In this document: piece by piece, positions 82 to 21,639 of the stretch
Position numbering within the stretch: position 1 is the stretch's first letter
How the letters are laid out: each line of letters begins with the position of its first letter
Origin: Priapulus caudatus
Taxonomy: Eukaryota > Priapulida > Priapulimorpha > Priapulimorphida > Priapulidae
NCBI RefSeq assembly: GCF_000485595.1
Contig: NW_014579301.1
Coordinates: 8,777 to 31,211 of the forward strand
Direction of reading: 5' to 3'
Length of the DNA stretch: 22,435 nucleotides
Program-made: the position numbers and the translations under genes
The notes under the pieces: generated by a model
Told to the model about the DNA's origin: nothing
Database searches by the model: none
The model's input: the letters and a program-made list of their open reading frames with translations, nothing else

Positions 82-170
82 TTATGCCATGACCGTGGAT
101 ACCTTGTAACACAGGAGGAACTGGACCAGACGATAGAGCACTTCAAGCAGCAGTTTGGAGAGAAACCCAG
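82..170 (+). CDS. POLR2E: POLR2E exon 2 (N-terminal jaw domain)
   Basis: This first visible exon codes for 29 residues beginning [20 protein letters not shown] and ending QQFGEKP. They correspond to about residues 20-48 of animal RPB5, where the human protein reads [18 protein letters not shown]. The acceptor is TTTTCTAG just before 82 and the donor is CCCAG/GTGACT. The exon starts in phase 0 and ends with two bases (AG) of a codon that the next exon completes as serine. The upstream exon encoding the start methionine lies outside the window, so the protein is partial here because of the window edge and nothing suggests damage. Confidence 0.96.
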
Positions 171-1276: not shown

Positions 1277-1338
1277 TGAAAGAAGACCTGCCCGTGCTGA
1301 CCTTATCGTGCTAGTAGCTCACATTGATGACCCAACAG
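1277..1338 (+). CDS. POLR2E: POLR2E exon 3
   Basis: This 62-base exon completes the serine codon and encodes ERRPARADLIVLVAHIDDPT, matching the human stretch [20 protein letters not shown]. It then donates one base (G) to the next codon, which becomes aspartate. The acceptor GTTTTTTGCAG has a good pyrimidine tract and the donor is CAACAG/GTAAAT. The segment is part of the N-terminal jaw domain and corresponds to a conserved strand of the RPB5 fold. Confidence 0.95.
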
Positions 1339-2947: not shown

Positions 2948-4581
<1,634 letters not shown>

Positions 4582-5985: not shown

Positions 5986-6066
5986 GCACTAGTTGACATG
6001 GCTCCCAAGTACATCCTAGAACAGTTTTTAGAAGCAGAACTTCTCATCAATATAACAGAACATGAA
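5986..6066 (+). CDS. POLR2E: POLR2E exon 5
   Basis: This exon has 81 bases and 27 codons, phase 0 at both ends, and encodes [19 protein letters not shown] followed by LINITEHE. The human counterpart is [27 protein letters not shown]. It closes the jaw domain and begins the linker to the C-terminal domain. The donor is GAA/GTATGT. Confidence 0.98.
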
Positions 6067-8508: not shown

Positions 8509-8567
8509 CATGTACCTGAACACATTGTCATGACACCAGAAGAGAAAACTGAACTGCTAGGAAGATA
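8509..8567 (+). CDS. POLR2E: POLR2E exon 6 (start of C-terminal assembly domain)
   Basis: This 59-base exon encodes HVPEHIVMTPEEKTELLGR plus two bases (TA) of a tyrosine codon finished by the next exon. The human counterpart is [20 protein letters not shown]. It begins the RpoH-like C-terminal domain that binds the largest subunit. The acceptor CTTCCAG is good. The donor GATA/GTATCC is weak, because the last exon base is A and the intron lacks the usual GTRAGT. Placing the donor here is forced by frame and by the next exon. The open frame would otherwise hit TAG immediately. Confidence 0.94.
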
Positions 8568-8610
8568 GTATCCTTGTAAAGCATAAATAACATTCAGCTT
8601 TTATGAATGC

Positions 8611-8892
8611 TGTAGTGTTTGCAACTAGTAATGTGGGTTTTAATTATTATTATTGCAAATTCAATGTGTACACATAATCTTTAATCAGTATTCTTCAATG
8701 ATATACTCCTAATAGATGATAGTCTATTATTATTATTATTATTATTATTATTATCTATATTATTATAATATTAGTATCTGGCTCAATGCTCATGGCTTCC
8801 CCTGGAGCCTCGTAACTACCAAATTAAAATCTGGCTCAGTCGTACAATTAAATCGTTTTAAGTTGTTTCTCACTATGCAGAAACCTATTACA
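8611..8892 (+). repeat. probable 5' LTR of the gypsy relic
   Basis: The right end (CCTATTACA at 8884-8892) directly precedes the primer-binding motif, which fixes it well. The left end is estimated from TGTAGTG at 8611. It contains a (TTA)n run that is absent from the 3' copy. Similarity to the 3' LTR is clearest in the last 70 bp and around AATCAGTAT...TATTCTTC. Confidence 0.6.
8725..8754 (+). repeat. (TTA)n microsatellite
   Basis: About ten TAT/TTA units inside the 5' LTR-like region, then interrupted TATATTAT sequence. It is absent from the 3' LTR copy, so it expanded after insertion. Confidence 0.9.
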
Positions 8893-8910
8893 TGGTGTCA
8901 GAAGTAGGAT
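8893..8910 (+). other. primer-binding-site-like motif
   Basis: TGGTGTCAGAAGTAGGAT follows immediately after the LTR end ATTACA. From family knowledge, a nearly identical phrase marks the start of the internal region in many animal Ty3/gypsy elements and is where the priming tRNA pairs. It is the anchor for calling 8892 as the LTR border. Confidence 0.7.
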
Positions 8911-9269
8911 GCAAAGATCAGTGATGGACTGAAATAGTCCCAATCTGAGAGAAGCATGAAATAATTCAAGCAACACTATCACTATGCTCATCGTGTTCAG
9001 AGCCTTTGTCATTGGAACTGTAGAAGGTTAAACATTTCATATCTGCTCTTTTGGATAAGTCAGTGAAGTTGTTCACCAACGTTCATGTTCCAAGAAGATG
9101 AGAAGAGTAAATTAGCACCCATTTACACCGATTAATGGGTTTTTAATTCCGAAAATCTAATACGGTGATGTGTCACGTCATGTGTTCCACCATAGAGTAC
9201 AGCAGCTAGCAGAGCCGGTCGACCAGTTTGTAATGGACGCAAGCTCATGATGGACTCTGCATATCCGCA

Positions 9270-9384
9270 AGCAGTCCAAAATGACCAAGTGCGTGATCAA
9301 TTTGGATTCGGAGTCGCATCAGATAAAGTGCAAGAAAGGCTTGTAGAACGATATCACGTTACACTATGAAAACTGGAATAAATG
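9270..9384 (+). pseudogene. gag relic of the gypsy element
   Basis: One frame reads NDQVRDQFGFGVASDKVQER and continues for about eight codons to a stop. This fits the VRDQ...VRERLL capsid segment common in animal gypsy gag proteins. It breaks just before the foldback insertion at 9385. After the insertion, a CRLCQRVGQGKR stretch (9864-9899) may be what is left of a zinc knuckle. The relic is not translatable as a whole. Confidence 0.65.
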
Positions 9385-9816
9385 GATAAATCACGGACTA
9401 ATCGCATGAATTGTGCAAAATGCATGGAGAGCCACGGACTATTACGGAGCTAATTACAGTCCGTGGTATAATACACGTACTTCCACGGACTGCTAATGGA
9501 CTGCCAACTAACAGTTATCGGTTGATTATTTAACGATGGTAAATAGCTAGAGCCCCAGCATCTGTTAACGTTCAACTGCTTCAAAATATCCCACTGCTGG
9601 TGTGAGGGTCCCATGCTGGCAGGGAAATTCACGTACTGTACTGTGAATTAATAATAACGGACACTTCTAGATTTGATCATTGTTAATTGGCAGTCCGTTA
9701 GCAGTCCGCGGCTAGTATGTGGGAGTTTATTTTGCCGGGGACTGTATTTAGCACCATAATAATCCGTGGCTCTCCGTGTGTTTTCACCATTTACGTTATT
9801 AGTCCGTGTTTTATTC
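9385..9816. mobile_element. foldback element with ~130-bp arms inside gag
   Basis: The left arm (9385 to about 9520) is found in reverse complement at about 9685-9816. Matching blocks include ACGGACTAAT, GGAGAGCCACGGA, TACAGTCC and GGACTGCTAAYGGACTGCCA. About 165 bp of loop separates them. The word CACGGACT or AGTCCGTG recurs several times within each arm. It has no coding capacity. The element lies between the gag relic and the zinc-knuckle relic, so it jumped into the retrotransposon and is younger than it. Confidence 0.85.
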
Positions 9817-10029
9817 GTCATGATAAGCACTATTATGGCATGTATCTTGCCAATGGTCAATCATGTAGATTGTGCCAAAGAGTAGGTCAAGGAAAAAGGA
9901 TATTCACGCCGTGGATGAATCCAGTTCCGGAGTTCCGTGAGGAATTCAGCATGGGCACTGTTTACAGCGCCGATGCCATGAGTAAGACAGTAGCTGATCC
10001 CTCAAGCCTATCAGGTCGTGTTTTCTATT

Positions 10030-12125
10030 ACACCTAACACTGGAGCTGAGGTCAACGTGTTACCGATATCGCTATACTAGTCTCTGGGCTGTCAATTGCT
10101 GAAGAGCGATTATCGTCCTGTATAGTTACTCTGGGCACTCGCTGGAAACACTAGCTTCTTGTGTAATAACGTGCACACATAAGGAAACCACCCTACCAGT
10201 GAAGTTTTCTGTCGTCAAAACTTCGTCACCCCCTGAAATTGTGTCTTTATTTTGATCTGGTAAAACTGGTAGTGTCTGTTAGGGAATCAGCCCAGTCATC
10301 TGCAGCACAGTTACCGTGTCCAGTGCCACAGGCTGCAACTCGACACGTCACACCTTCCTCCACGCAGGCTGTAGTAGACCAATTCAATGATGTGTTAAAA
10401 AAAATTGTTTCGAGGTGTTTCAAGGTCAATGCCCATTCGCCATCGACAGAAAAGTGACTCCTGTGAATCGCCCACCTGAGTATCCCCTTCTCGGACCGTG
10501 AAAAAGTCGAGCAGGAATTTGACAGTATGGTGGAAATCAAAGTCATTGCAAATGACCCCGAACCTACTGATTGGGTAAACTCTATATTAGTGGTTAAGAA
10601 ATAGTCACGGGTCATCAGGATTTGTTTGGATCCTGAGGACCTTATCGATGCCATCTGTCACCCACACTACCCTGCAAAGTCGCTCAACGACATCGGTGGA
10701 AGGTTAGCCGCTTCACGCTACTTCTGAATCCTTGCTGAGCGCTCAGGTTATTGGGCCATTGAACTGTTTCACCGGTTGTCCCTAGATACAACCTTCCACT
10801 TGCTATTTGGAAGGGACCGATTTCTCCGGTTGCCCTTGGAAATTGTCTGTATGCCACATGTGTTCTAGCCTAAGATTTATGAGGCTCATGGGAATTTGGG
10901 TGATGTCAAGTCCATTGTCCATTGTATTTTTCATATGGTCAGCACACGACAGTTGAGTATGATCACAAAGCCCTGGATCCATCAGAAATAAATGTAAGCT
11001 GCAGGGATATGATATCAAAGTCGTTCACAAGCCAGGCAAGGAAATACCTGTCGCCGACACGCTGTCTCGTCATTGCGTCGTCCTTCAATCTAATGATGAT
11101 GTGGAGTCGGTTGTACAAGTACACTCAGCGTTTGAGTCCATACCAGTCACCCCACATAAGCTAGAGGAAATAAGGTGTGCCACAGAATAATACCAGGTCA
11201 TGTATGTTCTCATGGCCACAATAATCAACGGCTGGTCAGAGTATCGTATGTCTTCCCCTAAAGACATACAGGAATACTGGAACCATAGGAGTGGGCTTTC
11301 TGTAATTGACGGTGTAGTTTTTAAATCCCACATGATTGTGATCCAAGAAAGGCTTAGATCTACGATTTGAGCATTTTTGCACACAGGCCAAATGGTCATT
11401 GAAAAGTGCAGGCTGAGAGAAAGAGACAGTATTCTGACCCTGCATCGATAAAGACCTTGAAAACAGCGTTCACTAGTGTGCCATTTGCAAAGCGCACCTG
11501 CGCATGAACCACTAGTGGGTTACCCCATTCCAGTCGGCGCCCATGACAGGGGATTGCCAGTGACATCTTTACTTTGAATGAGCTATGAAATACTTCTGTG
11601 GATGGTTTTTGCTTCGCCCGCACAACTTGTTATGTCTTCCGTAGCTGAGAATTGCCTCCCCCACCACAAGCTCTCAACCTGTGGCAATCTGACTCACATG
11701 CCAAAATCGGCAAGCCAGTCAAAAGAAGTATCAGGATTCCACCTTGCAGCTAGCTAAGTACTTTGTGATGAGAGAGTACATATAAACCAGATATTTTGCC
11801 CCAGCAAAACAGTTGTCATAATTGGTCAGGCTAAAGAGCCTAGATCATACGTCATCCAGTCTGATAATGGTGGCGTATATCGGCGTAATCACTACAATAT
11901 ACAGAGCTCTGAACAAACATTGTCATACCACTATAGAGTCCTACACTGAAATACATGCACCCCCGCAGGTACAAAGTACTCCGTCAAGACCAAGCCAGGA
12001 TGTAGAGCTCTGCATTATCCCATAAGCAGTCTGCTAAATCACCTTCACCACCAAAGCCAAACCATAGCGAACATGATAATACAGTCAGATCTATATATGG
12101 TAGAACTATCAAGCCCCCTATCAGC
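10030..12125 (+). pseudogene. pol relic of the gypsy element
   Basis: The fragments occur in the expected order but in shifting frames. A retropepsin motif NTGAEVNVLP (10036-10065) has Asn where the catalytic Asp belongs. Reverse transcriptase pieces follow (10500-10840), including EPTDWVNS, RICLDPEDL and SGYWAIEL. The polymerase YxDD region is deleted. An RNase H end reads LQGYDIKVVHKPGKE...ADTLSR (10999-11073). Integrase linker and zinc-binding pieces follow (CAICKAH, about 11477-11497), then the pol tail RSYVIQSDNGGVYRRN (11842-11889) and GRTIKPP (about 12099). In-frame stops and missing catalytic segments show it is dead. Confidence 0.85.
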
Positions 12126-12269
12126 ATGTCAGGCTTAACCCATGAGTGTATGAAATATTCAAAGCAAGCATACGATATGATGATGCTATATGCTTAGATA
12201 ACTAATATGCAGGCGTATAATAAGTTCGTTTCTTCACTATACAGCAGTTGATAGACACATATTTGTTCA

Positions 12270-12540
12270 TGTTACAGTACCTAAAGTACTGAAAGAGTCA
12301 GTGTAACACTACTAAGTCAATTATCAATGTGCAGTTTCAGTTCAGTTTTGAATCTCGTTTGTAATTTGCAAAACTTATTGTGTGAAGAGCGATGTAGTAT
12401 AATCAGTATAGGTATTCTTCATTAGATGGCGCCACCACTGTGTGCAGGATCCGGTTCATTGTGTCTGCTTGTGACGCAAATCTGACGTAATCGTACAATC
12501 AAACCGTAACATGTTGTTTCTACACAGCAACATATTACTA
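12270..12540 (+). repeat. probable 3' LTR of the gypsy relic
   Basis: It follows the pol tail. The end TTGTTTCTACACAGCAAC plus ATATTAC parallels the 5' LTR end TTGTTTCTCACTATGC plus CTATTACA. The start is placed at TGTTACAG (12270) by the TG rule only. The two LTRs are clearly diverged, indicating an old insertion. Confidence 0.5.
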
Positions 12541-12544
12541 TATA

Positions 12545-12880
12545 CTGGTGGGGGACCCGGCGTTGCCTGGGTTGCATTCACGACCAAAATATTTGCGGTG
12601 GTAACAACTGTGCACCGTCGCCATGCCCCCATGAGTGACCTCTACATCACCTGTAGGGGCAACCCTGGCGCGCAGCAATGGCTGCCGCTGTACATGTGTT
12701 ATATGGTATACAGTGTGAAACCAGGTATTTCTATATGATATTTTGCTCTAGATATGATCTAAATGTGCTTAGGCGCCCCAATTGGTGATCACCTAATAGT
12801 GCAGCAATTTTTGGTATCCTAAACCAATAAACGGTGGAATGCATAGCAGACAGACAGAGACAGACATAGTTGGTTCTTGT
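12545..12880 (+). repeat. non-LTR-like 3' tail (CCCGGCGTTGCC family)
   Basis: The block opens CTGGTGGGGGACCCGGCGTT and closes with AAACGGTGG...CAGACAGACAGAGACAGACA leading into microsatellite. A conserved ACCCGGCGTTGCC core followed by a CAGACAGA tail is, as I remember it, typical of 3' ends of some invertebrate LINE/SINE families. No reverse transcriptase is present in this piece. It may be a 5'-truncated copy. Confidence 0.45.
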
Positions 12881-12887
12881 AGTTGTA

Positions 12888-12888
12888 G

Positions 12889-12919
<31 letters not shown>

Positions 12920-12973
12920 TTATTTATTTATTTATTTATTTATTGATTTATTTATGTTTATATATATATATAG
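12888..12973 (+). repeat. (TA)n and (TTTA)n microsatellite
   Basis: An alternating TA run is followed by TTTA repeats and a second short TA run. It probably grew from the tail of the preceding retroposon-like block. Confidence 0.9.
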
Positions 12974-13057
12974 TTAAAGAATAATGGTTATTTGTACTAA
13001 TGATTGATTAAATTGCTTTGTTTGATGGAATTTGAGAATCCTTCACTCGCAATATAG

Positions 13058-13136
13058 CAAACTGAAAGACAGCCAGCTGCCTAGGATACAACAAGGTGAT
13101 CCAGTTGCGAGATACTTTGGATTGAAGCGAGGACAG
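13058..13136 (+). CDS. POLR2E: POLR2E exon 7 (assembly domain core)
   Basis: The first base completes the tyrosine codon begun in exon 6. The remaining 26 codons read [20 protein letters not shown] followed by GLKRGQ. This is the hallmark core of the RPB5/RpoH domain (human [21 protein letters not shown]), which docks onto the largest polymerase subunit. It ends in phase 0 at GGACAG/GTGTGT. The acceptor CACTCGCAATATAG has almost no pyrimidine tract, but frame and homology fix it. Confidence 0.97.
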
Positions 13137-13351
13137 GTGTGTATTTTTTACTTTTTAAATCGATACCTTCTTACATGTTCATTACTAGATTAATTCATCC
13201 ACAGAATTGCTTGCTATTTCAGGTCGAGTTGCAAACACCTGCAATGTGTCTTTCTTTTCAATTAGTGTAATCGTGAGAAAACACGTAACGTTTTCAACAA
13301 ATCTTACAATATTGGCATGCGCACACCTGCGCGTTATTGCATATGTGTACG

Positions 13352-13873
13352 CAGGGGCGGATCCAGGGCTGAAGCTAGACAATATTTTTCCAGATTTTAA
13401 GGGCACATCCCCCAAAAAGGGCACACCACCTTACAGTGGGCGCCGTTAGGCGCGGAAGCACATAGCGGGGGTCTGGGGGGCCTCCGCCAGGAAATTTCAA
13501 AATTACAAGGGTCCCTGGGCACAAAAAAGAGCACGATTTGAGCACACATTTAGTCAAGCAGCAATAGCTAAAAACCATATGGAATTTTATTTCTGCTTCA
13601 TTTTGCCTGCGCTTTGCATACCAGCAATTAATGCAGAATGATTCAAGCACTTACCTTATTTTTCAGATATCAAAGCTAGTTTTGTTACCATGTAAAATTT
13701 TGATTTCCTTCAAGTCATGTCAATGAATCAGAAGAAAAAGAAAACAAATAAAGAATATATAGCCAAATTCCATAAAATTGTTTTCTATATTTTTTAGCCC
13801 AAAATTTCGAAGGGCACTTTGAAATCTAGACCGTATTTCCCAATACGGCAAATACGGTCTGAATCCGCCCCTG
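13352..13873. mobile_element. 522-bp non-autonomous hAT-like element
   Basis: The left end CAGGGGCGGATCCAG and the right end CTGAATCCGCCCCTG are inverse over 15 bp with one mismatch. They are bounded on both sides by GTACG (13347-13351 and 13874-13878), a 5-bp target duplication. The CAGGGGCGGATCCAG terminus and the internal GGGGGTCTGGGGGGCCTCCGC phrase (20 of its bases at 13468-13487) are typical of widespread hAT-type short elements. Next to the right end, AGACCGTATTT and AAATACGGTCT form a subterminal hairpin. No transposase is encoded. Open frames on both strands here are shadows of repeat sequence. Confidence 0.85.
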
Positions 13874-13992
13874 GTACGGGTGGGTGCCTTTGTGTGTGAT
13901 TTGTTTATATACGTTTTTTATTGCTATTTTTATTGATATTTTTCTGTAACATTTATTGTTTATGTTGTGTACACATGAAATGTTCTATTTAG

Positions 13993-14058
13993 GTTGTTAA
14001 AATTATAAGACCAAGCGAAACTGCTGGTCGCTACATCACTTATAGACTTGTTGTCTGA
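13993..14058 (+). CDS. POLR2E: POLR2E terminal exon 8a
   Basis: This phase-0 exon of 21 codons plus TGA begins VVKII and continues [16 protein letters not shown]. It matches the C-terminus of animal RPB5 (human [21 protein letters not shown], except for the last residue). The acceptor is GTTCTATTTAG. It completes the RpoH-like domain. This is taken as the canonical end, being nearest to exon 7 and closest in sequence to other animals. A close copy is found 3.8 kb downstream at 17886-17951. Polyadenylation is uncertain. The first ATTAAA is at 14861 and the first AATAAA at 15205. Confidence 0.97.
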   Translation, partial: [21 protein letters not shown]

Positions 14059-15227
14059 TCTAAGAACCATCGATAGGTAAAGAAATGTGTATGGTTTCGC
14101 TTGCAATGTGTTTTCCCGTGTGCTACAAACTTACATGCGTGGGACATGAAACCAGAGCATCCCTATTAACTAAAACCAACTATTAGTTTTGTCAACCTCA
14201 GCCTACCTACCCATTTAGCAACATCTCAGCATTTCCAGTACTCCTTTTAAATTGTGATGAAATGCTAACTGCTGGTGTGAAATAAGGTTTGGTAATTACT
14301 AGTGATGTCATAATGATCAATTTAGTCAAAACTTGATCATTTGCAGTCACTGATTATAGAATAATTGAATAGCCTGTATTTTTGAGTTCTTATTATATCA
14401 GCTTCAGTTTAACTAAACATTACTTATAGGTTTACTTTTGAAATGTAAAAACTATTTGTAAAAAATTTTAATGATAAAAATCGGATTTTAAAAACAATCT
14501 TGAAACTAATTGTAATTATTATTTTATTTTTATTTTATTTTATCTTAAAAATATGATATCTATATTCTGAACATCAAAAGTTAACTGTTGGTAGTAGGAT
14601 CACCACTATAGTGTCACAATAGAAGCTCTTCTTTAGTCATTCGAATTAATCTGCAAAAGCGCTAAATGTGTTTTTTCTGTCAGTACCCTTAAAACATGTT
14701 TTCGACAATTTCATTCATTATTGCATAACATACTTATGTCTATAACTAATAGTATAGTAGTATTACCATACTGTCATCTTTAAGGTAATGGGGCCATTTC
14801 GAAAAAGATCTTTGTGTAAACTCAATCAAAATGTACATTGATAATACAAGCATGATAAACATTAAAAATAAGGTCATACGTGCAACATTGAGATGAATTA
14901 ATTATGAAATCCCAACCACTTCCCCCTTCACTAGTGCATGACATTCTAATAAGCAGTCAGTCAGTGAGTGTGACGTTTGAGATGATGAGTTTGCTTGGAT
15001 TAGTAAATATTTACTTACTGTTTGAGGTTGGACATCTCACATGTCTTTGTTTTGGGTTAACTTAGCCTGACCAGGCTGTGTGACTAATGTCAATATACAC
15101 ATCTCTTGATACACGGCTCAATACACGTCTCTTGATGTATGACCGTTTCTTGGAGCTAGGGTTAACTGTGCCACTTTACATTGAATTTTATTAAAAGATA
15201 AGGTAATAAAAATTTAGGCATGGTTTT
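14059..15227. other. 3' flank of exon 8a / start of the interval to exon 8b
   Basis: This is AT-rich DNA without coding features. It would hold the 3' untranslated region of the 8a form and is intron for the 8b form. Candidate poly(A) signals are ATTAAA at 14861-14866 and AATAAA at 15205-15210. A short direct repeat, CACGTCTCTTGATGTATGAC with a nearby ACATCTCTTGATACACGG, lies near 15099-15142. Confidence 0.5.
15205..15210 (+). promoter_or_regulatory. AATAAA poly(A) signal candidate for the 8a form
   Basis: This is the first canonical hexamer downstream of the exon 8a stop, 1.15 kb away and directly before the GTCC-repeat element. The weaker ATTAAA at 14861 could be used instead. Confidence 0.3.
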
Positions 15228-15775
15228 TAGCTCACCTTGACATCGTCAAGATGAGCTATTGCCATGGGGTGCCGTCCGTCCGTCCGTCCGTCTGTGCGTC
15301 CGTCCGTCCGTCAACATTTGGCTACGGTCAACAATAACTCAGGAACTGTTTGACCCACATGTTTCAAATTGCATATAGTTGTTACTCCTATGGGAGAGGT
15401 TTGAACGTCCTATTTTGGAGCACGCCAGTCGACCTACTTTCGAGCCACGTCCACTTTTTCGCAAAAATGGAAATGGCCATAAGAACTGGCCCCAAAACAT
15501 ATCAAACAGGTTTTGATTTTTTTTTAAATTATGCAAATTAGGTAAATTTCGGCAATTTCACTATGAATTTCAGTGTCTGCCTACGGTCACCGCCATCAGA
15601 TTGTATGCCAACAGATCTGAAACATTTATTTTCGCATCAAAAATTACTCGTATATCATCATTATCAAGAGTATATAATGGGAGATATGCTATATAATGGG
15701 AGTTCTCCCATATAATTATACTCTTGCTTTATATATCCCCCCCCCTCCCTCTTCTATCACACCCAAGGTGAGCTA
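15228..15775. mobile_element. 548-bp inverted-repeat element with (GTCC)n
   Basis: The left end TAGCTCACCTTG and right end CAAGGTGAGCTA are a perfect 12-bp inverted pair, with TA at each tip as a possible target duplication. Near the left end is CATGGGGTGCCGTCCGTCCG with the GTCC run continuing to about 15312. The phrase AACTCAGGAACTGTTTGACC follows. An internal stem, CAAGAGTATATAATGGGAG (15664) against CTCCCATATAATTATACTC, lies near the right end. The GTCC-bearing inverted-repeat layout is common in marine invertebrate genomes. It encodes no protein. The open frames at 15339-15541 are chance. Confidence 0.8.
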
Positions 15776-15800
15776 CAGTGTCATTGACACTTTCATTAAT

Positions 15801-16376
15801 TGTAGCGACCAATATTACATTCTGGCTATTATTGTCAATGGGACATTCATTGAGCCATGTTTACGCAACTATGTGCGGGCGAGAAACAATGTAGTGCAAG
15901 TAATGATGCCCGTCAACATCCATAGAGAAATATCAGCATGGCTATTTATATTGTGGACATTGTATGACGGGCTGAAATTGCATGCCGACGCATGATCGAT
16001 AACCATTGAGAACCAGGTATACTAGATTATTCAGGACCAAGCATATCACATTATTGAACACCACAATCTATGAGGGTGACGATGGCACGCGCTCGTCGGA
16101 GACATCCCGCACGAAACAAAGCAAATACGAGGATGCGTGCTCGCGGTCTAAGAGCGGGAAGAGAAGGATAAATAGGGCGTTGGTGCGGAGCGTTATGATC
16201 GGTATCCATGCGCACACCTACGCTCTGGTGTGGTTCGAGGTTCTGCCGGTCTTCTGTTATCAGTTGCAATAAACGTCTTGTCCCTTTAATTCTGGTCTTC
16301 ACCTTTGGCCATTCGTCCCTGGTTACTCTCCTACCTTTTCCCCTCACACTTGTGTAGCGTCACGCTATACGCTACA
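15801..16376 (+). mobile_element. probable solo LTR (576 bp)
   Basis: It starts TGTAGCG and ends CGCTACA, an inverse 7-bp pair obeying the TG...CA rule. In order inside are a TATA-type box GATAAATA (16167-16174) and, about 100 bp later, AATAAA (16268-16273), as expected for an LTR with U3, R and U5. Composition is much richer in GC than its surroundings. No internal retroelement sequence adjoins either side and no convincing target duplication is seen, so it could also be a truncated element. Open frames on both strands inside it have no protein support. Confidence 0.6.
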
Positions 16377-16572
16377 TACTCTTTGTATAAATTGCTGCAT
16401 CATACTGATACATCGATGTACTGTGATACAGCCGTCCACAATACGATAAACGCTACGCAGCGTCAGTATCGCAATACGAACAAGACGATGTTAAGGGGAT
16501 GCTTGACCCTAGGGTTCCTTGCACATTTTCAGTTAAAATAGGTTTAAATTATGCTACATAAAAAATTCCATT

Positions 16573-17029
16573 GTTCAATATTCATTAGAAGTATATTTTT
16601 TTAATGTTTTAAAACTAACTGCTGTTAAACGTTGCTTACAACAAAGGTGGCGCCACTACTAGCCCATCTGCTGTCAAATTTTGGCTGCAAGCTACAGACG
16701 GAGCTTATTTATAAATTTAAGATGAGAAGGATTGCACTACCTTGTAAACAACTTAGAGTCAATTATAATATGGACGAATTTGTCCTAAAATAAAAATCGT
16801 TCGGTTAAATTGCAGATAGGTATAAATTTAATTGCACTTTTGTGATTAGCCCTCGGTCTGTAACACAACTTTTCCAGTGTGGCAGCACCCAAAAATGAAG
16901 ATTTCGAAATTGTTGTTTTATGACAAATTTGAATGCATGATTGTAGAACTTTGTAGATATGTACTATTATTCATGCACTTGCTATCATAATATACCCGAA
17001 AATTCTAGCGTGGAGTATCTCTTTAAATA
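16573..17029 (-). repeat. dispersed inverted-repeat element, copy B
   Basis: This is the reverse complement partner of 659-1187. It keeps the marker words CCCTCGGTCTGT (16850-16861), GGTGGCGCCAC, TTGTTTTATGACAAATT and CTAGAATTTTC on the opposite strand, with many substitutions and indels. It lacks part of the inner region present in copy A. It lies between the two alternative POLR2E terminal exons. Confidence 0.8.
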
Positions 17030-17266
17030 GCGAATAATGCAAGCTAATTTATGTAATCAAGTACATGAAAATCTGGACCGACCCAATCTCCGAGCAGTCC
17101 GGATTTTTAGACTTCTACTGTGCGTAGTCTTGTGCTTAAATAACTTGTTCCCCAAGATTCCTACTTAGTGGTGAAAATTCCTACTTGTAAAGATTCAAAT
17201 TCCTATTACACAATGGTCAATGTTGGCACCTCTGCTGCAGCATCGTAAAGGCGCTGATAGATATTA

Positions 17267-17648
17267 TGTAGTGTAATAAGGGTTGGTAGAGGATATGGGG
17301 TAATTTACCAATTAAGGTAGGGGTAATAAACAAGTGAAGTGATGACAACAGTAAATAATCATTACCAGCAATAGGATTATTATGAGCCAGGGTAAACTAG
17401 GGCAGGCACGTGCCCTGTAATCAGGCTAGAGCAGGGTGTCCTGCCCCAGAGGTTCCAGAGGGGTTTTATAAGGAGGATCAGAGGAGAGAGGGACTCGCAG
17501 ATTAAAGAGAGAGGAGAGTACACACTCGACAGCCGCAGTCTGCAGGTTGCAGTGCATTTCTGTTGTAACCTGTGGTATAATAAACCTATCTCTATTTATA
17601 CTCAACGTTTTGGATCATCATTGACAGTTTACACCAAAGCTCCCTACA
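17267..17648 (+). mobile_element. possible solo LTR (382 bp)
   Basis: It starts TGTAGTG and ends CCCTACA, inverse at six of seven bases. It carries TATAAG (17467-17472), a GAGAG-rich leader, then AATAAA (17579-17584) about 65 bp before the end. That arrangement matches an LTR promoter and poly(A) site. No target duplication or internal region was found, so borders and class are tentative. Confidence 0.5.
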
Positions 17649-17885
17649 CTGCACTTGTAGGGTTTCAGATTAAAATGATGGAGAGGTCTATTTTTCATTG
17701 CACTGTGCAGCCGTGTTTTGCTTAGCCTGCCAGTTTTGTTTCGCCTTGGCCAGCCGCGATGTTGCTTTCTCGTTACAAAAGTATTCTTTCTCTGAATATT
17801 TTGTATTATTGTGTCTGTGAAATGGCCTATATAGGTGCCATATATCTAATGTGACCCATATTTCACAATTGTATTTTTGTTGCAG

Positions 17886-17951
17886 TTGGTGAAAATAGTC
17901 AGAACTAGTGAGACTGCAGGACGATATGTGAGTTACAGACTTGTTGTGTGA
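17886..17951 (+). CDS. POLR2E: POLR2E alternative terminal exon 8b (duplicated last exon)
   Basis: This is a second intact copy of the last RPB5 exon. After the strong acceptor ATTTTTGTTGCAG it has 21 codons and TGA, phase 0, so it can join exon 7 in place of exon 8a. It reads LVKIV then RTSETAGRYVSYRLVV. Against 8a, 6 codons are identical, 10 differ silently and 5 change the residue (V/L, I/V, P/T, I/V, T/S). The invariant SETAGRY and RLVV parts are kept. No upstream exons of a second gene copy were seen in 14059-17885. An AATAAA for this form is at 18710. It could be an alternative last exon, a relic of a tandem duplication, or less likely the end of a partial gene copy. Use in transcripts is inferred only. 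Confidence 0.85.
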   Translation: MVKIVRTSETAGRYVSYRLVV

Positions 17952-19257
17952 CCAAGTTGTGTATGGGCAACTGAAAGCAGTTGTCATTGCCAAAACTGAT
18001 GTACACCTGACCCTCACTCATCTCAACCTCATCTTCTACAAGTATCAAGTTGGACCACTTTGGCTGTTCATGACTACTTGTCATTTTATTGATGCAAGCC
18101 AGATAGTATGTCATGCTATGCCACAATTATTATTATGCAATTTCAGTTTTATATTAATTAGCTTCAGAATAATGTCAAGAAATTCACCACCATTGGTTTT
18201 CTATGGTTTTATCTGTCACAGTAACATTATCGTTTAGTTTTAAATACACTGTTGGTAGAGGCAAATGAACTGCAGATATGAAACTGTTCCCTAGGTTCGC
18301 TACAAGTTTAACACAGAAAAATGTTCGGTTTTGATCATGAAGCAGTTGTCAGTAACAATAATAAGTACACATGAATATGGTGAAATAAGTTGGGTTGTGC
18401 CTTTGTCAAGTGATAACAAACAAAAGCCTCAAAAAGCACTACCATGCCTGCAAATGGGCTGATTTGGTAGCACTGCTGTTTTTTTCTATCCATCTAAAAT
18501 AGCTAAATTCGCAGTCGGTGTTGCGATGAGTGCTATATAGATTCTGATGATTTAGTTTCTTCGGATTGTAGTTCTATTGTCTCTATTAATGGTTCCTGGT
18601 CCAAATTGAAATTATTTATGTGGAAAGGTCTACTTCAATGTACCAAACATGCAAAATTATATACTATATTTATGCAACTTTGCAGTTTATTTTTTGTAGT
18701 GCATACAGGAATAAAAAATTGTATAAATGTTGACAAAATTTCAATGCAAAAATTATTGTCAATTGTATTCGCCATTCCAAACATACATCTAATAAGACAT
18801 GAGGGATAAAAATGATCCAATTGGAAGAATTATTATTTAATAGCTAGATGTTCATAAAGCCTAGTGATGCTACTATATCTAGTTCCAATTTGCAATAACA
18901 ATCATTTAAGGTACTGCAATAATGCAGTCTTGTGACTGCTAACATTCCATGTCTTACCTAATATTCATTTTCTGAGGAAATGTCTGTTAAGTCAGTTGTT
19001 ACACTGCATATTTCATGATACAGACAAATGCTTACTTGTAAAAAAAAACAAGAAACTGCCTTATTTTGTGACTTATAGGATGGATGCCATTTATCCACAA
19101 AATTGTTCATCCAACTTGGTGTCCTATAAGCTGAATGTCGATGCAGTGGCCATTTTTAAGTATTACACAGTATAATAATAATCAGTGCTGATAAAGTGAA
19201 AGGCTTTTGAATTGCGGGAAGTTCGAGATAAAACAGAGTAACAAACACGGGTGTGGC
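17952..19257. other. 3' flank between the convergent genes
   Basis: This is AT-rich DNA with no gene. It would hold the 3' untranslated region of the 8b transcript (+ strand) up to about 18.73 kb. Open frames on both strands at 17688-18237 and 18606-18820 overlap each other and show no protein family. Confidence 0.6.
18710..18715 (+). promoter_or_regulatory. AATAAA poly(A) signal candidate for the 8b form
   Basis: GGAATAAAAAATTG lies 760 bp after the 8b stop codon and is the first canonical hexamer on the + strand in that flank. Confidence 0.35.
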
Positions 19258-19263
19258 TTTATT
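19258..19263 (-). promoter_or_regulatory. AATAAA poly(A) signal candidate for thioredoxin
   Basis: TTTATT on the + strand is AATAAA on the - strand, about 280 bases after the thioredoxin stop codon. It gives a plausible short 3' untranslated region that would not overlap the POLR2E 8b transcript. Confidence 0.4.
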
Positions 19264-19543
19264 TATAATGACAATATTATATACCCTTTAGTGAGGAGAC
19301 CTATTGCAGTGTTTTTTTAAAGATTGCTATAAAGATTACTTCCTCTTATATTTGTGGGTGCGTGCAATGTATCGGAGCATCTTATAAGCCACAAAATTCA
19401 GTAACTACACCTGATACTATCTATTAGTACTACATGCATGTACCAGAATTATAGAAGAAAGTATCTAAATTACTGGTTAACATGCTAAAGCAGATTTAGT
19501 TGGTGGTGATCGTAAAGGCCAATACTAATGAATCAAGATTCAT

Positions 19544-19606
19544 TTACTTATTGGACGCAATCTTGCTTTTTAGTTGATCTACATTTGCTCCAATCAGATT
19601 ATCCAC
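19544..19606 (-). CDS. thioredoxin last exon
   Basis: Read on the - strand, this exon is 63 bases, phase 0, giving VDNLIGANVDQLKSKIASNK and a TAA stop. It fits the last strand and helix of animal thioredoxin (human ...GEFSGANKEKLEATINELV), including the conserved GAN turn. The acceptor ATCTACAG (at 19607-19614 on the other strand) precedes it. Thioredoxin is a 105-residue cytosolic disulphide reductase. This exon ends it at the normal length. Confidence 0.93.
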   Translation of the reverse strand: MDNLIGANVDQLKSKIASNK

Positions 19607-20682
19607 CTGTAGATAAGATAAACATTATGTATACTGGTACCATATTTTAACATGATGGTTCACATTAAATAAAACACTTGATTAAGGTTACACACTTCTG
19701 ACAGCTCCTAACTTCACAACTTCCACAGCCCTCTGTTTTAGTTGATATTTACAGATTTGCTAGGGAAGGTAGAAGGAGAGAGAAAGCCAGAGAGGGTGGG
19801 GAAAGGAGAGGGAGTCCGAGCATGCAAGTACATGCCAGCATGCCTACGCAATAACACAATTTTTATCCAGGTACTATAGCAATCACTAATCTATTTCTGT
19901 GTTAAGGATGATAGGCCTACTGTTAGTTTTAGGGTTATGCACAGGTAACACTGACACTGTAAAAGGGCAGTGCAACATAACTGCTCATCAAATTCAATCC
20001 AGTTACTCATATCCATTACATAAGAGAGATGTCTCTCTGCGCTCTCGATGCATTTTTTTTTTTAATTCCTCGCTAATTAAGTGACGGCAAAAATTGTGAA
20101 TTTACAAACAAAAAATCTTTTTTTGTTATTTCTCAGAAACAGTAAAGAGTTGGGACCTAAACCTTTAACCATGTTGATCATAATATGAACTAAAAAATGT
20201 CCTTGGAATGCATTAATTTAGGAAATAAGTTGAAAAGATCAAGATGTACATGTGAAAATTTGTAGTGATTTTCAAAACGCAAAAATTTCGTAAACAAAGA
20301 GCCATAACTTATAAAATATAATATTTAAAAAAATTCCAGAGAAACCGTTTTCCTTTTATATGTTAGCATTGAAACGTAACATAATTTTATGCAATCGGAG
20401 TTATGAGTTTCGAGAAATAGCGTTTGAAAAATCAGCAACTTCAGCATTTCTAACAATGGAGATATTAGCACTTTTCTAAATTTCCCATGATTGAACGCCT
20501 GTGTTAAGAATTGACTAATGCAGGGATTTGGAACTGTTTGGGAGGCTACATACATAATTTCTACGTATACCAGCTGCTCTTGGGTGCGATCTATCAAATA
20601 AAGTGGGTATTGAATTTTCGACTGAAAATCGCCTCCCAACCATAACTAACAGTATCCTTAAAAAATGTTATCGCATATTCAC
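19607..20682. other. thioredoxin intron; purine-rich tract
   Basis: This is the intron between the last two thioredoxin exons. It holds a purine-rich run at 19757-19816 (GGGAAGGTAGAAGGAGAGAG and onward on the + strand). It also has an unclassified AT-rich block at 20100-20640 of the kind that often belongs to repeats, with GGGAGGC words near 20540 and, inverted, near 20630. The open frame at 20325-20639 (- strand) has no recognisable domain. Confidence 0.5.
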
Positions 20683-20745
20683 CTTCTTCCCATCTTTCAG
20701 AAACACAAATGTTGGCATCGCAGACACATCGTAATCTGCTGCAAT
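20683..20745 (-). CDS. thioredoxin penultimate exon (cis-proline loop)
   Basis: Another 63-base phase-0 exon encodes IAADYDVSAMPTFVFLKDGK plus a final K. It contains the conserved MPTF with the cis-proline that faces the active site, followed by the KDGKK turn, as in thioredoxins. The donor AAG/GTGAAT and acceptor TTTACAG (on the - strand) are good. Compared with human thioredoxin the positions of Cys69 and Cys73 are Tyr and Ala, so the extra regulatory cysteines of the vertebrate protein are absent. Confidence 0.96.
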
Positions 20746-20980
20746 CTGTAAATGTGAAGGTTGTTACAAAATATTATTTTTAATTATTTCTTACCTAATA
20801 AATAAGAATGGCACCACTTTAACTGGTTAATACAAATGCCACTACTAACATGGTTTAAAATTAGAAACTGTCTATTGAACATGGACACTAATGCTATGTA
20901 CCCTGCTCTATAGCAACTAAAACGTACAGCAATGGGTTACTTTAAAACACCAACACTCGTCAAAAGGAATGTCGACTTAC
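20746..20980. other. thioredoxin intron
   Basis: This is a 235-bp GT-AG intron on the - strand (GTAAGT donor, TTTACAG acceptor) with no other feature. Confidence 0.85.
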
Positions 20981-21043
20981 CTCATCACAGTCGTCAACAT
21001 TCACCTTGAGAAATACAACATCACTCAGCTCATCTGACATTGC
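20981..21043 (-). CDS. thioredoxin internal exon (5' part of gene outside window)
   Basis: A third 63-base phase-0 exon encodes AMSDELSDVVFLKVNVDDCD plus E. It corresponds to human [21 protein letters not shown], covering the second helix and third strand, with the buried Asp-Asp-Cys. The acceptor TATTTTCAG and consensus donor GTAAGT are clear. The preceding exon with the redox WCGPC motif was searched for on the - strand up to 22435 and not seen, so the gene continues beyond the window. Family membership (thioredoxin proper, and not a thioredoxin domain of a larger protein) is likely because the end matches the normal C-terminus. Confidence 0.95.
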
Positions 21044-21639
21044 CTGAAAATATAATTTGCAAGCTGAGGCACAAGAAACAAGTGCCGCGGAGCGACAGCG
21101 CTCATCTAACGTCTACTGCGGTGACTCTGTGGTGGAGTGGTGGGATTCTANTGCGTGCGTATATGCATCTGTGCGCTCGCTAACGTGTGTGACAAAAGTA
21201 AAATGCTTACGCATTCGTGAAGTTGCCGGTGATATTCGCGAAACAGTAAATATTATGCGAGCGAAAATAATCGGAACAATTAAATTATTTAAATAACTCT
21301 CAATGCATTCTTTCTCAACAGATCTCAAGTCCCAAAGCCATTGGCATGTTAGTCATAGCTACGACACCAGGGGGCGCATTCTCGAATATGTTTACCTACT
21401 GCAATGATGGAGATGTTCCCTTACGGTACCCAATAGCGATGATGGACATCGTCGAAAAACGAAAACTTAATATTTAAAACTTCACTAAAAGTGAGCTTAA
21501 ACTTTAACTTTTTAAATTGAACTTAACCTTTTAATTCAAACTTAAACTTAAACCTTGTGTAACCTTAAAACGTATAAACTAGTTTGTAATAAAATAGTAT
21601 TTATAATATAACTTAGTATAACTATTTGTTATTATAACT
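21044..21639. other. thioredoxin 5' intron or flank; one ambiguous base
   Basis: No exon was recognised. The part at 21080-21260 is richer in GC than its surroundings. A single N at 21151 marks an unresolved base. Direct AACTTAAACTTTAA-type repeats lie at 21478-21570. Confidence 0.5.

Follow-up and report, generated by a model that had tools for sequence, protein, structure and literature searches.

Tandem duplicated, alternatively spliced exons usually have equal length and phase, with selection acting on both. RPB5 is a subunit that nuclear RNA polymerases I, II and III have in common. Core polymerase subunits are generally regarded as invariant, and plants have more than one RPB5 form. The closest described parallel to the locus reported here is KRAS of vertebrates, in which two homologous last coding exons, 4A and 4B, lie in one gene and the proximal one carries a stop. 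According to PMC5945503, both transcripts contain exon 4B, which goes untranslated whenever the stop-bearing exon 4A is included, and in a preprint (PMC9882654) exon 4A is reported to derive from exon 4 of NRAS. Variation of RPB5 itself has been described as paralogues in trypanosomes, together with paralogues of shared subunits in plants (PMC8721170), and solved structures carry names such as ‘polymerase V subunit 5A’. The original prediction had taken RPB5 to be a single-isoform subunit in the species familiar to its author, which on this evidence is too broad a statement outside animals. The RPB5 (POLR2E) gene of Priapulus caudatus differs from the trypanosome and plant cases, which involve paralogues or polymerase-specific subunits, in being one gene with a doubled exon. 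It differs from tandem duplicated exons generally in that the exon is terminal and belongs to a universal RNA polymerase subunit, and from KRAS in that the KRAS tails differ in membrane-targeting motifs whereas the RPB5 tails appear near-equivalent and their alternative usage is putative. A predicted RPB5 model from Ladona fulva (P0005, 252 aa) contains exon-7-like sequence twice and is perhaps another, independent tandem duplication near the 3′ end of this gene, but there the duplicated segment is penultimate rather than last, and P0005 is known from the protein model alone. No paper combining ‘RPB5’ and ‘alternative last exon’ was found in the literature search, and there was nothing on two RPB5 tails in the titles or abstract beginnings of the literature matches listed.

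The window, i.e. the whole 22,435-nucleotide stretch of P. caudatus contig NW_014579301.1 that was analysed, contains exons 2 to 7 of RPB5 and two versions of the last coding exon, here called 8a and 8b, arranged as follows in window coordinates.

82–170, plus strand: RPB5 exon 2
1277–1338, plus strand: RPB5 exon 3
3552–3691, plus strand: RPB5 exon 4
5986–6066, plus strand: RPB5 exon 5
8509–8567, plus strand: RPB5 exon 6, its 3′ end at a presumed U12-type donor, GTATCCTT
13058–13136, plus strand: RPB5 exon 7, with a phase 0 end (CAG|gtgtgt), the shared 5′ partner of 8a and 8b
13993–14058, plus strand: coding part of exon 8a, 21 codons and TGA, absent from the database protein
14059–14076, plus strand: possible untranslated remainder of 8a, should 8a be a cassette exon, reaching to the donor TAG|GTAAAG, suggestive only
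17886–17951, plus strand: coding part of exon 8b, LVKIVRTSETAGRYVSYRLVV and TGA, last exon of the database protein
17952–18730, plus strand: probable 3′UTR of 8b, with AATAAA at 18710 and a putative end

Spliced together, exons 2 to 7 and 8b translate exactly to residues 20–210 of P0004, a predicted RPABC1-like protein of P. caudatus that is over the curated cut-offs for both Rpb5 domains (PF03871, 115.2 bits; PF01191, 115 bits). P0004 was the one near-identical protein among the best 120 of 3202 protein matches, the other listed identities being 88% or less; those 120 include only one named Priapulus entry, whose cluster has one member, and no 8a isoform. Because 8b supplies the tail of P0004, it is 8b that is annotated as the last exon, and 8a is absent from the model; this reverses the original prediction, where 8b had been presented as the second exon. 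The genome searched comprises 385 Mb in 2952 contigs, and the window reaches the end of its contig. In a profile search, too coarse for exons 8a and 8b, exon 7 was the sole PF01191 place in this genome at E ≤ 0.001, and the gene is apparently single-copy. The 8776 bases upstream of the window read N, so that exon 1 was not seen here.

Several other elements occur in the window. Intron 6 (8568–13057) has, besides its donor, a branch-like ATCCTTCAC shortly before the AG, and we take it to be of U12 type on the strength of its likeness to the consensus. Within the same intron, at about 10420–11720, remains of a decayed retroelement with reverse-transcriptase-like words were seen by eye. Mouse Polr2e is named in PMC7312986 among genes with affected U12 introns, a likeness at the level of the gene, and Priapulus is described in PMC10639083 as rich in minor introns. 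Exons of a thioredoxin-like gene lie on the minus strand at 19540–21045, convergent with RPB5; a joined 38-aa piece of it scores 24.2 bits against PF00085, whose cut-off is 23.5. An inverted repeat pair occupies 876–1202 and 16557–16864, with arm pairs 89% and 78% complementary, and the latter copy sits between 8a and 8b. No conserved RNA element was found in the window by Rfam at gathering thresholds, and tblastn against phages gave no match.

A direct check of the letters upheld the prediction of two in-phase terminal exons: 8a and 8b each follow an AG, each continue exon 7 in phase 0, and each consist of 21 codons and TGA. They are equal at 47 of 66 bases, differing at 19 of the 63 coding bases and at 5 of the 21 residues. 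By codon, 6 are identical, 10 differ silently and 5 are replacements (from 8a to 8b, V1L, I5V, P7T, I15V and T16S), the same counts of silent and replacement changes as had been proposed. The local alignment of the two exons scores 76, compared with 42 for the best of 300 Markov shuffles. The flanks, in which no similarity had been predicted, indeed score within the shuffle range at 60, 150 and 300 bases on either side, with 38–272 of 300 shuffles reaching the observed score. Being homologous, of the same length, strand and phase and in one gene, 8a and 8b constitute a tandem duplicated exon pair.

Patterns of substitution are consistent with long-standing selection to retain both copies, as the original prediction had held. 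The Nei-Gojobori method counts 13 silent differences at 16 silent sites, such that dS is saturated, and 6 replacement differences at 47 sites (dN 0.14), in a comparison covering 63 coding sites in one species. When neutral simulations were run to 19 differences, 2 of 20000 had five or fewer residue changes and no stop. When one copy was simulated as dead and the other was permitted silent changes only, 5 of 5000 runs were as conserved as the observed pair and the mean was 10 residue changes. Since simulated pairs were so rarely as conserved, it is unlikely that either 8a or 8b was dead throughout; the pair is best taken as an old duplicate whose two members are intact and have been under constraint over most of their existence. 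The same data are compatible with one copy having died recently.

Comparison with relatives suggests that the two tails, A from 8a and B from 8b, are probably near-equivalent in polymerases, because four of the five replaced positions also vary among relatives, and solved chains show a like spread. From 192 relatives fetched, 189 with a full tail were used, P0013, P0037 and P0052 being dropped for a missing or short tail; the tail-finding pattern required Gly12 and Tyr14, a requirement that excluded no relative. These 189 are the best matches to queries bearing 8b, and some are related to each other; because of the queries, the sample leans towards 8b, if it leans at all. The 8a tail is identical to that of 18 of the 189 relatives and the 8b tail to none, and 154 relatives are nearer to 8a, 23 nearer to 8b and 12 equally near. 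Ten tail positions are invariant in all 189, and all ten are kept in both exons. Positions 5 (I/V/T), 7 (P/S/N/R/A/T), 15 (I/V) and 16 (S/T/A) vary among the relatives, and four of the five replacements fall in the six most variable tail positions (P 0.011). The sole unusual replacement in 8b is V1L: at position 1 (residue 190) relatives have V in 186, C in 2 and I in 1, and the Leu of 8b in none. Thr at position 7 (residue 196), as in 8b, occurs in 1 of 189. At the five replaced positions, two solved chains read V, I, S, I, S (9mu7_E) and V, I, P, I, T (29tk_E), alongside L, V, T, V, S in 8b. The suggestion that two C-termini could mark distinct polymerase pools is not supported by these patterns, in which replacements mostly fall where relatives also vary and the invariant positions are kept.

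Our main reading, to which we would give a probability of about one half, is that the exon was duplicated long ago, that selection kept both copies, and that both are used, with 8a a skippable, stop-bearing exon resembling KRAS 4A. We infer that both exons are spliced to exon 7; use of both is unproven, and the case for it is built on the 63 coding bases, the gene model in the annotation and the signals at the splice sites. When 8a is included, exon 7 would join 8a, which would probably be spliced on to 8b from a donor at 14076/14077, giving tail A and turning 8b into 3′UTR. When 8a is skipped, exon 7 would join 8b and give tail B. The donor in question, GATAG|GTAAAG, lies 18 bases past the 8a stop and scores 1.96 on a generic matrix with approximate base frequencies, which was used for all splice sites. 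This falls among the scores of the six exon donors (−5.36, 1.15, 4.87, 4.98, 5.83 and 6.99), the lowest of which is the U12-type donor of exon 6, a site ill suited to the matrix. Such donors are expected by chance at 0.11 per 50 bases, and the one after 8a is for that reason suggestive only. Under the usual rule of 50–55 bases between stop and junction, RNA that includes 8a should escape nonsense-mediated decay because its stop would be only 18 bases before the junction.

The distribution of poly(A) signals is likewise in favor of 8a as a skippable exon: no AATAAA or ATTAAA occurs from the 8a stop to 14861 (about 800 bases), whereas 8b is followed by the AATAAA at 18710. This contrast is weak because gaps of 800 bases are not rare, with nine AATAAA and five ATTAAA in 13136–20700, and a signal near 8b is expected anyway. 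Against the same reading are the lack of an 8a isoform among the 120 protein matches listed, the possibility that the donor arose by chance, the rarity of Leu190 and Thr196 in relatives, and the weak acceptor of 8a, which scores 0.04, a value equalled or exceeded by 15% of the 1221 AGs in the window, compared with 4.86 for 8b, in the top 0.9% of those AGs. The acceptors of exons 2 and 7 score below that of 8a, the latter being of presumed U12 type. A weaker acceptor in 8a is what one would expect of a skippable exon, and just as much of a relic. The purpose of a skippable 8a, if any, would lie in the RNA, through 3′UTR content or splicing-dependent dosage, or in redundancy, and not in distinct enzymes. 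A much more speculative extension, which we consider a long shot, is that regulated inclusion of 8a would let RPB5 control its own output or 3′UTR through the speed at which it is itself transcribed and spliced, which would amount to kinetic feedback in a subunit shared by Pol I, II and III, with Leu190 and Thr196 of tail B slightly retuning contacts in one polymerase class.

An alternative explanation could be that 8a and 8b are true alternative last exons, both used and having separate poly(A) sites and 3′UTRs, as was first proposed. Both do end in TGA behind phase 0 acceptors, and poly(A)-like variants occur in the 420 bases after the 8a stop (AAGAAA at 14080, ACTAAA at 14169 and 14412, GATAAA at 14473), but the lack of AATAAA or ATTAAA over the 800 bases past that stop and the usable donor just after it speak, weakly in each case, for a skippable 8a instead, and we regard separate 3′ ends as possible but rather unlikely. 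It is also doubtful, to us, that 8b alone is used today and that 8a, in use until recently, is now a silent relic yet to decay. Such a history would agree with a database protein that has 8b only and with the weaker acceptor of 8a, but 8a is undamaged and equals a tail common among relatives, and a copy dead throughout would average about 10 residue differences where 5 are observed.

The converse possibility is that only 8a is in use and that the automatic gene model picked 8b, a copy under drift. That most relatives have tails nearer to 8a, in spite of the 8b-bearing queries, and that Leu190 is unusual would be in keeping with drift in 8b; however, the acceptor of 8b is much the stronger, its frame is intact and its changes are conservative, and a model that bypasses the nearer, more standard exon may point to transcript support, and we consider this improbable. 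We place next to no weight on an assembly artefact or a fragment of another RPB5 gene, although the contig is 31211 bases long here and 37087 in the source of the protein and a diverged second gene could escape DNA searches, which detect close copies only (the 8b query missed even 8a), since there is no N between the exons (the single N in the window is at 21151), the 66-mers of 8a and 8b each match themselves alone in the genome, exon 7 is the one PF01191 place, and, when the window is searched with the whole protein by tblastn, exons 2 to 7 each appear once and exon 8 twice, the best stray hit having E 0.53, no better than chance. In wider DNA searches, a 901-base stretch around 8a had one other genome match (75% over a 90-base stretch, window 14628–14717) and a 1021-base stretch around 8b had no other close copy. 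These results speak against the artefact and the separate dead copy that had been named as grounds for abandoning the prediction. Haplotype or assembly duplication was rejected on the 30% base divergence, more than haplotypes allow, and the unrelated flanks, and a second gene as the source of 8b is unlikely.

The doubled last coding exon in this core polymerase subunit gene is real, old and intact. Specialisation of the protein is not supported, and an explanation through splicing is preferred, though unproven. The data suggest that an intact coding exon, 8a, has been left out of the current Priapulus gene model. Exon duplication of this kind is known in itself, and an intact doubled last exon in a universal subunit is an unusual site for it. 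The doubled RPB5 exon allows a clear-cut test of what keeps duplicates like these in place: the protein, the 3′UTR or dosage control based on splicing.
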